In this document: positions 656 through 39,101 of the stretch, in pieces | How positions within the stretch are numbered: position 1 is the first letter of the stretch | Layout: each line of letters starts with the position of its first letter | Assembly: GCA_030446745.1 (NCBI GenBank) | Contig: JAUJMS010000007.1 | Span: 68,108-132,107 of the forward strand | Length of the DNA stretch: 64,000 nucleotides | Direction of reading: 5' to 3' | From: Egibacteraceae bacterium | Lineage (GTDB): Bacteria > Actinomycetota > Nitriliruptoria > Euzebyales > Egibacteraceae | Translations under genes and position numbers: made by a program | Notes under the pieces: model-generated | The model's database searches: none | Told to the model about the DNA's origin: nothing | Seen by the model: the letters and a program-made list of their open reading frames with translations, nothing else

Positions 656-1219
656 ATGCGACTCCCGCGCTCGGCCGCCGTGGTCGTGCTCGCGGCAGCC
701 CTGCCGGCCTGTGGTGGCGGTGCCGGCACGCCGCCAGCCGCCGCCCCGACGGGCCCGAGCGCCCCGGCCACGGTCGCGGAGGCCGGACCGCAGGGCGTCG
801 CGCCAGCGGTGCCGGCGGCGCTTGACTTCTCGTTGCCGGGCGTCCTCGGCGGACAGGTCGACGGCGCCGAGCTGGCCGGCAAGGACGTCGTCTTGTGGTT
901 CTGGGCGCCGTGGTGACCGTCGTGCAACCGGGAGGCTCCCGGGGTCGCGCAGGTGGCGCGACAGTACGGCGACCAGGTGACGATCGTTGGGGTGCCCAGC
1001 CTCGACAACGTCGGCGCGATGCGCGACTTCGTGGAGCGCCACGGCTTGCAGGACCTGCGTCACGCCGCGGACGTCGACGGGGTGGTGTGGAAGGCCAACG
1101 GCATCGTCGGGCAGCCGGCGTGGGTCTTCGTCGACGGCGAGACGGGGGAGCAGGCTCAGCACCTGGGCAGCCTCGGCGAAGAAGGCCTGACCGAGGTCGT
1201 CGAGCAGCTCACCTCCTGA
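656..1219 (+). CDS. Selenocysteine-containing TlpA/MPT53(DsbE)-like thioredoxin-fold lipoprotein; TGA at 914-916 read as Sec
   Basis: Frame continues through a single TGA: VVLWFWAPW-U-PSCNREAPGVAQVARQYGDQVTIVGVPSLDNVGAMRDFVERHGLQDLRHAADVDGVVWKANGIVGQPAWVFVDGETG. The TGA replaces the first Cys of WCxxC. N-terminal signal with lipobox (LPAC). tRNA-Sec is present in the same window. Confidence 0.9.
917..943 (+). promoter_or_regulatory. Candidate bacterial SECIS element (stem CCGGGA 928-933 / TCCCGG 937-942, loop GGC 934-936)
   Basis: Hairpin starts 11 nt after the TGA. The apical loop is 17 nt downstream and begins with GG, as in bacterial SECIS elements. Confidence 0.65.
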
Positions 1220-32605: not shown

Positions 32606-32768
32606 GGCGCCTCATGGAACCACCACGGCCGCAGAGTAGTAGGCGCGGACTAGCCACCGGGCTCGTGTGGAATGCTGAACGACCGAGCCGGTCAGGGTTG
32701 TCCCCCTCGGGATGGAGGGGACGATGGCCGCACCGTGCCTCGAGCGCGCGAAACCTGGAGGAGCGACC

Positions 32769-33269
32769 GTGAACACGACTCGTCCGCGCTCACAGACGTT
32801 GTGGGCGGCCGCCGCGCGGGGCGCTGCTGCCGGGTTGCTCGGCGTCGTGGTCATGACCGCCGCGGAGAAGCTGGAGCAGGCGTTCACGCACCGCCCCGAC
32901 TCGTACGTCCCTGGTCGGACGCTGTTGACCCTGGTGGGTCACCACCCCGACGACGACGCAAAGCCGTTCTTGTGGAACCACGCCATGCATTGGGGAACGG
33001 GGGCGCTGTTGGGCGCTCTGCGTGGCGTGTGGGCCGAGGTCGGGCTGCGCGGCCCGCGGGCGAACCTTGCCCATACCGTCGTTCGGCTGGCCACCGATCA
33101 AACCGTCGAGAACGCCACCGGCGTCGGCGCGCCGCCGCACACGTGGCCGGTGCTCGAACAAGTCGTCGACGTTGCTCACAAAGCGGTCTACTCCTTCGCC
33201 ACGGGTCTTTTCGCCGACCGACTCATCGAACCCAGCTTGGAGTCACGACGCGGCGTGACGAGCCATTAG
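32769..33269 (+). CDS. Conserved membrane protein of unknown function
   Basis: GTG start after GGAGGA; ARGAAAGLLGVVVMTAAEKLEQAFTHRPDSYVPGRTL…HAMHWGTGALLGALRGVWAE. Confidence 0.6.
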   Translation: MNTTRPRSQTLWAAAARGAAAGLLGVVVMTAAEKLEQAFTHRPDSYVPGRTLLTLVGHHPDDDAKPFLWNHAMHWGTGALLGALRGVWAEVGLRGPRANLAHTVVRLATDQTVENATGVGAPPHTWPVLEQVVDVAHKAVYSFATGLFADRLIEPSLESRRGVTSH

Positions 33270-33298
33270 CTAGCGCTGTCGGCGCCTTACGCCGGGGG

Positions 33299-33329
33299 GT
33301 GACCCTACGGTTCCGTACCGTCATAGCGT
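33299..33329 (+). promoter_or_regulatory. MerR-type promoter candidate: GTGACC – 19-nt spacer with dyad CTACGGttCCGTAC – TAGCGT
   Basis: Partial dyad GAC..TACGG-tt-CCGTA..GTC inside a 19-nt -35/-10 spacer upstream of methyltransferase 33420..34064. Confidence 0.4.
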
Positions 33330-33419
33330 GCGTACACCTCGGTCGCGTCAAGGGCGTAAAGGCGGCATATGCTGACGTCGAAGTCCTATAGCAGCGACAA
33401 GTCATGGCATGACCTCGAG

Positions 33420-34064
33420 ATGACGGCGCTGGAGCCGGGAGACGCGTTTCGCATTGTGCGCGCCGGTTACGACCGGCTTGGGGAGCGATACAGGTCGTGG
33501 TCGGTGGACGTGTCAGTCCGGTTTCGGCAACTCAAGGTCGTGCTGGAGCGAGTGCCAGCGGGCGGAGTCGTCGTCGAGCTTGGCTGCGGCGACGGGGAGC
33601 CGGTGACACGGCTTCTCAGCGAACACTACCGCGTCGTTGCGGTTGACGCCTCGGTGGTACAGCTGTCGATGGGGAGACGCGCTGTCCCCAGGGCGATGTT
33701 CGTTTTGGCCGACATGACGGAGTTGCAGTTCAAGCCTGGAGCAGTGGACGCCGTCGTATCGTTCTATGCACTCGGCCACGTGCCCGCCCGCCGGCATGCC
33801 GCACTCTTTCGGTCGATCGCGCAATGGCTGCGTCCCGGAGGCCTCGTCATGGCCAGTGCTCCAACCGGCGTCGGCGACGCCGTGGAAGCGAGCTGGCTTG
33901 GCGTCCCAATGTTCTTCGGAGGCATCGGCGAGGCAGCGACCCGCGCTGCAGTCCACCAAGCCGGATTGACGCTGGAGCGCGGTGAGGTCATCACCGAGGA
34001 CGAGGGCGATGGCGAGACCGCCGAATTTCTCTGGCTCACCGCAGTTAAGCCACCGGTTTCGTAA
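33420..34064 (+). CDS. Class I SAM-dependent methyltransferase
   Basis: VVVELGCGDGEPVTRLLSEHYRVVAVDASVVQL; FVLADMTELQFKPGAVDAVVSFYALGHVP. Confidence 0.85.
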   Translation: MTALEPGDAFRIVRAGYDRLGERYRSWSVDVSVRFRQLKVVLERVPAGGVVVELGCGDGEPVTRLLSEHYRVVAVDASVVQLSMGRRAVPRAMFVLADMTELQFKPGAVDAVVSFYALGHVPARRHAALFRSIAQWLRPGGLVMASAPTGVGDAVEASWLGVPMFFGGIGEAATRAAVHQAGLTLERGEVITEDEGDGETAEFLWLTAVKPPVS

Positions 34065-34277
34065 GCCGTCGTGCCGTTGTCAAGAGAAGTTGCCCTACCA
34101 GGCGTAGAACCAGCAATCTGTGACGACCGATTCGCCTGCCGGGTGTGCGTATACGAGCCCCTAGATGTGCGTCCCTACGCCGACTACTCCGTACCGTGCC
34201 GGAACGGGCAACCGCGCCTATGATGAGTGGCTAGGTTAGTTAGCCTCGGACCACCCGCATGTGGAGGAGGGCGGCCC

Positions 34278-34625
34278 TTGCCACTCATTGACGTGACCTA
34301 CAACACCTCCGTGCCCCAGTCAGAGCTTCGGCACCTGGCAAACGTGCTGCCCGACATAGTGGCGGAAGCGATCGACCGCCCAGAGGAACCTTGGGTTGGT
34401 CCGCCAGCCGAAGGAGACTTTGAAATCCGGTTCCGATCCAGGGGTCGGCTCGACGTCGGCGAACTCGACTGCGTCGTCGAGATTCGGACGAAACTGTTTC
34501 CGAGCCGTGTAGAGAACAAGCGGGAGCGTTCCACCCTGATCCTGGATCGTCTGTCGGAGCAGCTGAGCTTGGACCAGCTTGGTGTATGGCTGATCCTCCT
34601 CGAAGGCGCCTGGGCTCAAGGTTAA
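34278..34625 (+). CDS. Tautomerase-superfamily-like small protein
   Basis: TTG start after GAGGAGG; (M)PLIDVTYNTSVPQSELRHLANVLPDIVAEAID with Pro immediately after the initiator. Confidence 0.45.
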   Translation: MPLIDVTYNTSVPQSELRHLANVLPDIVAEAIDRPEEPWVGPPAEGDFEIRFRSRGRLDVGELDCVVEIRTKLFPSRVENKRERSTLILDRLSEQLSLDQLGVWLILLEGAWAQG

Positions 34626-34815
34626 CTAGGCGTCGAGCTTCCGCCCAAGGCGACGAAGGCGGAGCTGGAAGCGTTGATCGCTGACGCCGAGGCGGCGAAG
34701 ACGAACGGCAAGAGCCGCAGCTTCATGAGCGGCAGCATGATCGGAGCGGCTGGTCGTCCGTCGGCTCGACGGCGTAGGGGCCGAAACCGACTCCGACCTG
34801 CGGTTCCGGGTCTAG

Positions 34816-34908
34816 CGGAGGCGGACGGGAATCGAACCCGCCAGGCGACCGGAGGCCGCCTCATCGGTTTTGAAGACCGTGGAGTCCACCAGGAACCCAG
34901 ACGCCTCC
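34816..34908 (-). tRNA. selC: tRNA-Sec (anticodon TCA)
   Basis: Minus strand: GGAGGCGT…CACGGT-CTTCAAA-ACCG…AGGCG-gcctccggt-CGCCT…GCGGG-TTCGATT-CCCGT-CCGCCTCC-G. 7-bp perfect acceptor stem, TCA anticodon (complement of 34871-34873), long variable arm, discriminator G, CCA not encoded. Confidence 0.9.
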
Positions 34909-35197
34909 CTGCGAGAATCGTGCCAGACCCGGCGGCGTTGCGCCCCACGCGCGCTGGTTCGTGACCCCGCTCACGCTGGCGACACGTCCGGTGGCTGCGG
35001 CCAGTCCGCGCGGGCGGCCTCGTTGGCCGGCACGGTGGCACGCGCGCCTCGGGTTGTGGCTCTCCACGCTGTCGACCGGAATGCCCGGCCGGCGTTACCC
35101 CGTGGCGACTCGCTCGTTACGTTGGTTGGCGGCTCTTCGGAGGGCAGCGCCTGGCTGTCGCAGCGGCGCGGCTACAGAAGACATCTCAGGGACACCT

Positions 35198-36325
35198 GTG
35201 CGCAGAAGCTTTGTGGTGCTGCTCGTGGCGGTCGTCGTTGCCACTGTTGCTCCGGTAGGTGCGAGCACCGCGGCGTGGACACCGACCTACACCGCGGGCG
35301 TCTCGATGCCGAACGTGCCGTCGTTGAACGCCTTCAGGGACGGTTCGGTGTTCGCGGTCATCGACGGCTATCGCGTCACACGCAGCCGTGACGGCGGAGT
35401 GACGTGGACGGCCAGCCTCGAGCAGCCGACCAACGGTGGCGGCTTCCAGATGCCTCTGAGCATGGCCACGCCCAACATCGGCTACGCGGCCAGCGCGAGC
35501 TTCCTGTCACGGACGCGCGACGGAGCCGAGACGTGGCGGAACGTCCGAGTACCGTTCGTGACGAAAAGCCACAGCGAGTCGATCGAGGCGCTCGCCACTA
35601 CCGACCGCGGCAGAACCGTCGTGCTCGCCAAAAACGGGTTCGAGTTCGTCGACGAGGCGGGGCCCCAGCATCTGCAAGGCTGTCCCGACATGCTGCGGTC
35701 CACGCCTATCCAGGTCACGCGCAACGCCGGACGCACGTGGCAGCGGTCCGACCTCGGGTTCCCGTCCCAGCCTCGAGCGGTAGAGATGCATGACCGCCTG
35801 CGCGGCACGCTCCTGGTCTTCCCGAAGAAGTACGAGCCGCCGGTCAAAGCCGAGGACGGTGGGTGCGCCAGCGGTAGCGGCGAGCGGCTCACGCGCATCC
35901 GAGTGATGACGACCGTTGACGGAGGTCGGACTTGGCGGCGGAGCTTCGCGTGTTCCACGGCCTGCGCTGCTACATGGGTCAACGACCGGCGGCTCGTGGT
36001 CGCCGAGACCGACGGATCACTTCATGTCAGCGACGACCGGGGTGCCTCGTACCGACGCCTCGGTACCGTGTTCACGGCCGCCGACGGCGAGCGCAAGTTC
36101 CTGCACGCGATCGACTTCGCCACGCGTAAGGTCGGCTACGCCGCCGTGTACGGCAACGGGACCTACCGAACCGCCGACGGAGGGCGGACATGGGCCCTCG
36201 AGCGCATGGAGCCGGGTGAGGTCGGTGTCGGATTGTTCAACGTCAACGACGTGGCGGCTGTCGGATCCGCCGGCGCGGTGGCTGCGAGCACAACCGCATT
36301 GAGTACACGTCAAACGCTCCCCTAA
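35198..36325 (+). CDS. Exported BNR/YCF48-like (sialidase-fold) repeat protein
   Basis: Signal peptide RRSFVVLLVAVVVATVAPVGAS; repeated SRDGGVTWTASL, TRDGAETWRNV, TVDGGRTWRRS, TADGGRTWALE Asp-box-like motifs. Confidence 0.75.
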   Translation: MRRSFVVLLVAVVVATVAPVGASTAAWTPTYTAGVSMPNVPSLNAFRDGSVFAVIDGYRVTRSRDGGVTWTASLEQPTNGGGFQMPLSMATPNIGYAASASFLSRTRDGAETWRNVRVPFVTKSHSESIEALATTDRGRTVVLAKNGFEFVDEAGPQHLQGCPDMLRSTPIQVTRNAGRTWQRSDLGFPSQPRAVEMHDRLRGTLLVFPKKYEPPVKAEDGGCASGSGERLTRIRVMTTVDGGRTWRRSFACSTACAATWVNDRRLVVAETDGSLHVSDDRGASYRRLGTVFTAADGERKFLHAIDFATRKVGYAAVYGNGTYRTADGGRTWALERMEPGEVGVGLFNVNDVAAVGSAGAVAASTTALSTRQTLP

Positions 36326-36456
36326 CGCCGCGTCGCCCGCCCCAATTGCCAGCCGCCTGACGGTGGCCGGTATCGCTGACGGCACATCCCTCCAGACGCC
36401 GAAGGTAGTCGTCGAGGTTGGGCTGTGTCGTGGCGCCCCCCGCTAGCCTGGACGGC

Positions 36457-37311
36457 ATGGTCGAGTTGCTGCACTGGGTCACGAGCCCTCCTGCGTTGCG
36501 ACGCCCCGTGCTGATCGTGGCGCTGGAGGGATTCGTCGACGCGGGCGTCGTCGCCGCCACCGCGGGCGCGTTCCTGCGTCACCGCTGGCAGTCCGAGCCG
36601 TTCGCGCGCTTCGACCGCGACGCGCTGATCGACTACCGGGCGCGGCGGCCCACGGCGGTGGTCGACGCGGGGCGCCTGCGGCGCGTCGAGTGGCCCGACG
36701 TCGAGGTGTTCGCCGCGACCGTCGACGGCCCGCGCGACGCGACCCTGCTGCTCGGCCCCGAGCCCGACATGCGCTGGAACGCCTTCGCCGACGCCACCGT
36801 GGCCCTGTGCCGCCAGCTCGGCGTCGACGTGGTGCTCGGCCTCGGCGCCTATCCCGCCGCCACGCCGCACACCCGCCCCATCCGCATTCTCAAGGCCACC
36901 AACTCCGTCGCGGGCGATCTCGTGCCGGAGGCCGGCGACATCTCCGGCTACACCGGTCCGGTCGGTGCCGGCACCGCGTTGCAGGACGCGCTCGCGGCCG
37001 CCGGCATCCCGGCGGTCGGCCTGTGGGCGGAGGTGCCGCACTACATCGCCGGGTCGCCGAACCCAGCCGGCGCCCTCGCGCTGGTGCGGCTGCTCGCGGC
37101 GACGCTGCACACCGAGGTCGACACGACCGAGCTCGAGGCCGCCGCCAAGCTCCACGACGAGCAGGTCGCCGAGGCGGTCGCCGAGCATCCCGACGCAGGC
37201 GAGATGGTGACGGCGCTCGAGGCGCTGTACGACCAGGGAGGCCACGAGGACGGCCTGCCGTCCGGCGAAGCGATCGCCGCCGAGATCGAGCGGTTCCTGC
37301 GCCAGCAGTGA
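36457..37311 (+). CDS. PAC2 family protein
   Basis: PVLIVALEGFVDAGVVAATAGAFL; LLLGPEPDMRWNAFAD; GLWAEVPHYIAGSPNPAGALALVRLL. Confidence 0.88.
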   Translation: MVELLHWVTSPPALRRPVLIVALEGFVDAGVVAATAGAFLRHRWQSEPFARFDRDALIDYRARRPTAVVDAGRLRRVEWPDVEVFAATVDGPRDATLLLGPEPDMRWNAFADATVALCRQLGVDVVLGLGAYPAATPHTRPIRILKATNSVAGDLVPEAGDISGYTGPVGAGTALQDALAAAGIPAVGLWAEVPHYIAGSPNPAGALALVRLLAATLHTEVDTTELEAAAKLHDEQVAEAVAEHPDAGEMVTALEALYDQGGHEDGLPSGEAIAAEIERFLRQQ

Positions 37312-37347
37312 CGCGGCCTGTCTGCCGACGCCGCCAGGCCCTGCGGT

Positions 37348-37734
37348 CTAGCGGCGCAGGTTCATCAGGCGCACGGTGCCCGAGGCCACCAGCGCCCCGT
37401 CGGTGTCGCTGACCTCGACGCGCCACAGCTGCAGGCTGCGCCCGCGTTGGACCGGCAGCGCCTCGACGTGCAACGTGCCGTCGCTGACCGAGCGCAGAAA
37501 GTCGGTGTGGTTGGCGACGCCGACCGCGACGCCGTCGCCGGCCAGCCACAGGTTCGCCCCGATGCTCGCGGTGGTCTCGACCACCGTGGCGTAGACGCCG
37601 CCGTGGACGATGCCGTGGGGTTGGTGCAGGTGCGGGGCGACGGGGACGGTCGCGACGACCCGCTCGCCGCTCGCTTCCACCACCGACGTTCCGACCAGCT
37701 CGTCGAAGGGGCTGACGGCGGGCTCGGTGTCCAT
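37348..37734 (-). CDS. PaaI-type hotdog thioesterase
   Basis: HLHQPHGIVHGGVYATVVETTASIGANLWL. Confidence 0.85.
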   Translation of the reverse strand: MDTEPAVSPFDELVGTSVVEASGERVVATVPVAPHLHQPHGIVHGGVYATVVETTASIGANLWLAGDGVAVGVANHTDFLRSVSDGTLHVEALPVQRGRSLQLWRVEVSDTDGALVASGTVRLMNLRR

Positions 37735-37772
37735 CGCCGCAGCGTAGTGGCGGTCACGGCATCATCGGCGCC

Positions 37773-38612
37773 ATGAGCGACCACACCGCCAGCGCCCCGT
37801 CGATCGACGACGTCGACGAGTCGAGCTTCGCCACCGCGGTCGTCGAGGCCAGTCACACCCGGCCGGTCGTCGTCGACTTCTGGGCGGCGTGGTGCGCCCC
37901 GTGCCGACAGCTGTCGCCGCTGCTGGAGCGCGTCGCCGCCCGCCACGCCGACGACGTCGCGGTCGTCAAGGTCGACGTCGACGCGGCACCGCGACTCGCC
38001 GCCCGCTACCGCGTCCAGGGCATCCCGTCGGTGAAGGCGTTCCGCGATGGGGCGGTCGTCGCCGAGTTCACCGGGCTGCAGCCCGAGGCCGCCGTGGAGC
38101 GCTTCTTCGCGGCGCTGGCGCCGACGCCCGCCGACCGGCTCGCCGCCCAGGCCGAGACCGCCCCGCCCACCGAGCAAGAAGCACTGTTGCGTGCGGCGCT
38201 GGAGGAACAGCCCGACCATCCGGCGGCGTGCGTCGCGCTCGCGCGCCTCCTGCGGGACCGGGGCGACGCCGACGAGGCCCGACGCCTGCTCGACCGCGTG
38301 CCCGCCGATGCCGCGGCGCGCCGCCTGTTCGCCGAGTTGCAGCTGTCCGTCGACGCCCCGACCGCCGCCGAGCTCGACGACCTGCGGTCGCATGCCGCGG
38401 CCGGCGACGGCGATGCGCGCCTCGCGCTGGGCCGCGCGCTCGCCGCTGGCGGCGACGCGGCGGCGGCCCTGCCGGTGCTGATCGACGCCGTGCGCGAGCC
38501 CGCGACCCGCGACGCGGCCCGCGCCGCCGTGCTCGAGGTGTTCGCCGTCCTCGGCGACGACAGCGACCTCGTTCGGGCCTGGCGGCCCCGGCTCGCCTCG
38601 GCGCTGTTCTAG
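37773..38612 (+). CDS. Thioredoxin with C-terminal TPR-like region (CnoX/YbbN-like)
   Basis: VVDFWAAWCAPCRQLSPLLERVAARH; helical TPR-like C-terminal half. Confidence 0.85.
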   Translation: MSDHTASAPSIDDVDESSFATAVVEASHTRPVVVDFWAAWCAPCRQLSPLLERVAARHADDVAVVKVDVDAAPRLAARYRVQGIPSVKAFRDGAVVAEFTGLQPEAAVERFFAALAPTPADRLAAQAETAPPTEQEALLRAALEEQPDHPAACVALARLLRDRGDADEARRLLDRVPADAAARRLFAELQLSVDAPTAAELDDLRSHAAAGDGDARLALGRALAAGGDAAAALPVLIDAVREPATRDAARAAVLEVFAVLGDDSDLVRAWRPRLASALF

Positions 38613-38624
38613 TAGGGTGCGCCG

Positions 38625-39101
38625 ATGCCTGACGAGATCGAGATCCTCCCCGGCGACCAGGCGGCCGTGGACGAGGGCCCCAAGAGCGCCATCACCGAGC
38701 CGAGCAAGCTCATGCGCATCGCGGTGATGCTGCGGGAGCTGCAAGGGGAGGTGCGCCGAGCGTCGCCGGACCAGGCGGGGCGCGACCGGCTGCGCACCGT
38801 CCACGAGCGCGCGCTGCACGAGCTGTGCGACGTCTTGTCGCCCGACCTGCAGGACGAGCTGCGCGACCTGACCCTGCCGTTCGAGGACGGGACGCCCACC
38901 GAGTCCGAGATCCTCATCTCGCAGGCGCAGCTCGTCGGCTGGCTCGAAGGGCTGTTCCAGGGAATCCAGGTCACGCTGTTCAACCAGCAGGCCCAGGCGC
39001 GCGCCCAGTTCGAGCAGATGCGCCGCCGCGGCCTGCCGCCGGGCAGCAGCCCCGACGACGGTGGCGACGAGCGGCCCACGAGCACCGGTCAGTACCTGTA
39101 G
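38625..39101 (+). CDS. bpa: Bacterial proteasome activator Bpa (PafE)
   Basis: DUF2587-type sequence EPSKLMRIAVMLRELQGEVRRA…ILISQAQLVGWLEGLFQGIQVTLFNQQAQARAQFEQMRRRGLPP with C-terminal GQYL. Confidence 0.92.
   Translation: MPDEIEILPGDQAAVDEGPKSAITEPSKLMRIAVMLRELQGEVRRASPDQAGRDRLRTVHERALHELCDVLSPDLQDELRDLTLPFEDGTPTESEILISQAQLVGWLEGLFQGIQVTLFNQQAQARAQFEQMRRRGLPPGSSPDDGGDERPTSTGQYL

Follow-up and report, generated by a model that had tools for sequence, protein, structure and literature searches.

A tRNA-Sec gene with a full selenocysteine machinery in a little-studied actinobacterial group

The only tRNA gene in the 64-kb stretch of DNA analysed here (the window, contig C13:68108-132107) is almost certainly a functional bacterial tRNA-Sec (selC) gene, in a genome that holds selA, selB and selD. 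It is an ordinary, well-supported tRNA-Sec accompanied by the full machinery. The analysis confirms a complete selenocysteine (Sec) trait in this little-studied group of actinobacteria, and in-frame TGA codons, here those of a redoxin-like gene and of selD, should therefore not be annotated as stops in such genomes. An earlier note, made from the letters of the window, had called the tRNA-Sec; on the sequence comparisons reported below that call is right, and its hints of oddity vanish once relatives are considered. The closest named matches to the genome are Euzebyaceae and Egibacteraceae, and to judge from these relatives the window probably belongs to the Nitriliruptoria, Actinomycetota, where Euzebyaceae are placed; a literature search on selenocysteine in Nitriliruptor or Euzebya returned no papers. 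The features discussed are collected in Table 1.

Table 1. Coordinates of the tRNA-Sec gene, its putative UGA-containing target in the window, a neighbouring gene and the Sec machinery (window positions unless a contig is given).
Feature	Position	Strand	Basis
Thioredoxin/redoxin-like selenoprotein gene (putative), WAPW-U-PSC	656..1219	+	Pfam AhpC-TSA/Redoxin/Thioredoxin; 22 homologues with one TGA
In-frame TGA, very probably read as selenocysteine	914..916	+	homologue comparison
SECIS-like hairpin CCGGGA-GGC-UCCCGG	928..942	+	fold; conservation; GCT codon excess
tRNA-Sec (UCA) gene	34816..34908	-	92 nt plus discriminator G73 at 34816; ARAGORN, RF01852, covariation
Anticodon TCA of tRNA-Sec, inside loop CTTCAAA (34875-34869)	34871..34873	-	sequence reading
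PAC2-family gene, context, not Sec machinery	36418..37311	+	Pfam PF09754; tblastn against relatives' tRNA-Sec flanks
selB	C13:35604-37448	-	304 bits with in-frame neighbours, cut-off 242
selA	C13:37505-38812	-	447 bits, cut-off 268
selD (locus L019)	G000 contig C18:8706-9629		368 bits, cut-off 125

Two independent detectors and a direct reading converge on the gene. ARAGORN returned a tRNA-Sec (tca) at 34815-34908 on the minus strand, as the earlier note had proposed that it be run. The covariance model, far from rejecting the fold, matched at 34908-34817 minus with 70.9 bits (Rfam RF01852; E 1.7e-12; model positions 1-91 of 91) against a gathering score of 47 bits. Direct reading agrees with both, so that the strand and coordinates first given were exact; the discriminator G is in place, and the anticodon is the same in the ARAGORN call and in the loop CUUCAAA. 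Across the whole genome the second-best RF01852 match reached 43.2 bits, under the cut-off, and the other sub-cut-off matches are probably ordinary tRNAs.

The fold read from the sequence has the features of a bacterial tRNA-Sec. The acceptor stem, GGAGGCGU/CCGCCUCC, consists of seven Watson-Crick pairs, the perfect 7-bp stem described earlier, followed by U.C at the 8th position and a CU linker. The D arm, GGGUUCC-UGGU-GGACUCC, has seven layers, six of them standard pairs (one G-U) and one U.C, and thus the stem of at least six layers and the 4-nt loop expected of the family. The anticodon arm is ACGGU-CUUCAAA-ACCGA with A.A as its top pair, and the T arm is GCGGG-UUCGAUU-CCCGU with five stem pairs, which gives an 8/5 acceptor/T domain of 13 layers, 12 standard pairs plus the U.C at the 8th acceptor layer. 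The variable arm is long, AGGCGGCC-UCC-GGUCGCCU; the earlier note had seen this arm but, as AGGCG/CGCCT, had made it 5 bp where it is 8 bp. With these go the UCA anticodon, G73 and the covariance score. CCA is absent from the gene, and GCTA comes next.

The T-C at the 8th acceptor layer and the A-A in the anticodon stem had been flagged as unusual. Both mismatches are present in the sequence, but relatives share them, so this gene is not odd in either respect. When 30 tRNA-Sec genes of its own class are aligned, the 8th acceptor layer forms no standard pair in 30/30, and at the top of the anticodon stem 16/30 have A.A or G.A; both are therefore inherited features. Among 30 tRNA-Sec genes from other Actinomycetota classes (23 parsed by script, 7 read by eye), the 8th layer is A.C, U.C, G.G or G.A in 24, C-G in five and U.G in one, a proportion that is approximate because these are the best-scoring loci of the sample, one per genome. 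The structure as a whole covaries in the class: all 8/8 variable-arm pairs covary, with compensatory changes on both sides, and the whole-structure covariation score is 0.259 against 0.080 in shuffles, well above slid controls too. At eight of the loci compared the anticodon loop reads CUUCAAC instead of CUUCAAA (last position A to C), with UCA kept.

Could the gene nonetheless be decaying, a pseudogene in a genome that is losing the Sec trait? Its mismatches at the 8th acceptor and top anticodon-stem pairs, the CCA that is not encoded and its position apart from selAB would all fit such a history. Yet both mismatches are conserved among relatives, the gene's own D-stem changes preserve standard pairs (G-C to G-U, U-G to U-A), selA, selB and selD are intact, and two UGA-containing genes still require the tRNA. 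We consider decay very improbable. A functional tRNA-Sec remains the preferred reading. The majority of the Actinomycetota tRNA-Sec genes sampled have a mismatch in place of the 8th acceptor pair, despite acceptor stem length being described as the main determinant of SelB binding (PMC7609411). This is mildly interesting and, because of that description, makes the recurring mismatch a small testable point; a limited literature search, a weak test, found no description of a widespread 8th-layer mismatch. The non-canonical layer (U.C, A.C, G.G) might be a product of selection, for instance if actinobacterial SelB is matched to it as an identity or anti-EF-Tu element, and not of neutral drift, although we hold selection to be the unlikely option.

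A second alternative is that the molecule resembles tRNA-Sec and carries another amino acid, as a selC*-type tRNA-Cys, an allo-tRNA or a UGA-suppressor tRNA-Ser would; a long variable arm and a long acceptor are common to such tRNAs (PMC7609411). The 8/5 fold with its 13-layer domain, the long D stem with a 4-nt loop, G73 and UCA speak against it, as does the full SelA/SelB/SelD set in the genome, and we give it a negligible probability. Two of these candidates also fail on specific features. The first pair of selC* tRNA-Cys is A1:U72 (PMC7609411), whereas here it is G1-C72, and G-C in 30/30 class tRNA-Sec genes. The acceptor domain of allo-tRNAs comprises 12 bp (PMC7609411), arranged 8/4 or 9/3, whereas the T stem here has five pairs and the domain 13 layers in total.

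In the bacterial pathway, SerRS serylates tRNA-Sec, SelA makes Sec, SelD supplies selenophosphate and SelB delivers the product to UGA codons with a SECIS. By this established scheme, SerRS would load serine onto the tRNA-Sec of the window, SelA would turn the bound serine into selenocysteine with selenophosphate from SelD, and SelB would bring the Sec-tRNA to UGA codons that have a SECIS hairpin after them; the genome has at least two such UGA codons, one in the redoxin-like gene and one in selD. The genome-wide search proposed in the earlier note found SelA, SelB and SelD, each over its curated cut-off, so that the absence of SelA and SelB, named as a possible refutation, does not apply. That note had recognised none of the three genes nearby and supposed the machinery to be dispersed. 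None does lie within the window, and selD is on another contig, but selA and selB are adjacent, with both reading frames intact, on the same contig as the tRNA-Sec, 64 kb from it and 29 kb to the left of the window, and were therefore invisible to the earlier reader. The selD gene contains one in-frame TGA, in SHGAG-U-ACKLAP, at the catalytic Cys/Sec position of that family. SelD proteins that contain Sec are already known as selenoproteins (PMC13188914 table 1). The TGA form of selD is frequent in this family, and several other class members have a TGA-less selD adjoining selA and tRNA-Sec. Formate dehydrogenase alpha was considered as another selenoprotein, but all its matches in the genome fell below the cut-off and lacked a TGA.

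The window itself holds one of the two putative targets. Read through its TGA, the gene at its left end encodes 187 residues with a redoxin/thioredoxin fold (Pfam), the TGA falling at residue 87. When the 61 genomes of the class were searched, the best 22 homologues (102-402 bits, from 21 genomes) each had exactly one in-frame TGA (22/22), and those from 74 bits downward had none; W[AT]PW-UGA-xxC occurs in all 21 loci inspected. The downstream hairpin has an apical loop GGC, beginning GG and thus containing a G as in a SECIS, 17 nt after the UGA. CGGGA-GGC-UCCCG is clear in about 12 of 21 homologues, and the other loci have weaker or different hairpins. The Ala codon that shapes the hairpin is GCT in 12/21 genes, compared with 18/481 other Ala codons of the same genes; the binomial p of ~1e-12 ignores shared ancestry, so this is only a strong trend. 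The 66-nt region around the UGA shows no excess of folding over its shuffles (z -0.39), which is what a hairpin this short should give in a GC-rich background. Taken with the tRNA, these comparisons make a Sec reading of the TGA at 914 very probable, as had been proposed.

Across the 61 class genomes, tRNA-Sec was found above a threshold of 56 bits in 45, selA over its cut-off in 42 and selD in 46, and the UGA-containing redoxin occurs in 21, of which 19 also have tRNA-Sec. Three genomes (G005, G010, G015) have Sec genes and no tRNA-Sec detected by Rfam or by the lineage model, and this imperfect co-occurrence likely stems from assembly gaps. G010 and G005 carry selB, selD with a TGA, and selA in full or in part, and in these two the tRNA-Sec is probably missing through such gaps. 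In G015 (contig C20:343603-346817 and 410403-410858; loci L163, L164), selA and selB are split into several frames, a redoxin gene and a selD, each with a TGA, are kept, and neither ARAGORN nor model R1 found a tRNA-Sec from selA to the contig end. The broken genes could be due to errors in sequencing, or this lineage could be on its way to losing selenocysteine.

Why does the tRNA-Sec lie so far from selA and selB? The earlier note had described it as isolated from other sel genes; the distance is real, but such spacing is normal within this Actinomycetota order, and a conserved neighbour accompanies the gene. In six genomes of the order a single contig carries both the tRNA-Sec and selA, tens of kb apart, and the redoxin gene, if it shares the contig, is found between the two (five genomes, this one included); in five class members tRNA-Sec, selD and selA are within a few kb of each other. 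A PAC2 gene is near tRNA-Sec in at least 10 relatives, and in several of these a thioesterase, a CnoX-like thioredoxin-TPR gene and a proteasome activator come after it, with the window's equivalent at 36418-39101. The shared arrangement and the PAC2 neighbour therefore point to a conserved position and not to a recent escape. Between tRNA-Sec and PAC2 sits a BNR-repeat gene (34961-36325), which has no counterpart in the relatives' tRNA-Sec flanks, and neither do several genes to the left of the tRNA (32712-34625; a methyltransferase and two frames without Pfam matches); both segments are possible lineage-specific insertions. At first sight the short frame at 34629-34964 seemed phage-like, yet Pfam gave no match for it up to E 1. 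We also considered an island integrated at tRNA-Sec, and found no supporting evidence: the 22-nt 3' end of the tRNA occurs only once in the window, and there are no informative direct repeats.

The assembly is MAG-like (2.71 Mb in 59 contigs, 85.5% complete, 4.05% contamination), which might suggest that the contig bearing tRNA-Sec and selAB is foreign to it; this is exceedingly unlikely, for the order selA - redoxin - tRNA-Sec is the same in relatives of the order, and PAC2-thioesterase-CnoX-Bpa match Euzebyaceae/Egibacteraceae MAGs at 62-83%.

Set against known systems, the putative selenoprotein of the window resembles predicted prokaryotic redoxin/thiol-disulfide selenoproteins of the UxxC type (PMC13188914 table 1), having likewise UxxC in a PF00578/PF08534 fold. 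It scores far under the cut-off of every curated NCBIfam subfamily (best ResA-like, 52 against 170 bits), and no named subfamily fits it there. The closest tRNA-Sec genes compared, found with the 5' half as query, are those of the Euzebyaceae/Egibacteraceae MAGs JACCVM010000040.1, JACCTL010000047.1 and JAUJMQ010000001.1, which are near-identical in that half, including the A.A, and share the PAC2 neighbour; the window differs from them in the BNR-repeat gene before PAC2 and in the 3' strand of the D stem, GGACTCC where theirs reads GGGCCCC. Unlike most bacterial tRNA-Sec genes, 93% of which encode CCA (PMC5330540), it does not encode CCA. With the bacterial tRNA-Sec (selC) family of RF01852 it shares UCA, the 8/5 fold, the long D stem with a 4-nt loop, the long variable arm and G73, and it departs from that family in the U.C at the 8th acceptor layer and the A.A atop the anticodon stem, both of which are frequent in its lineage.
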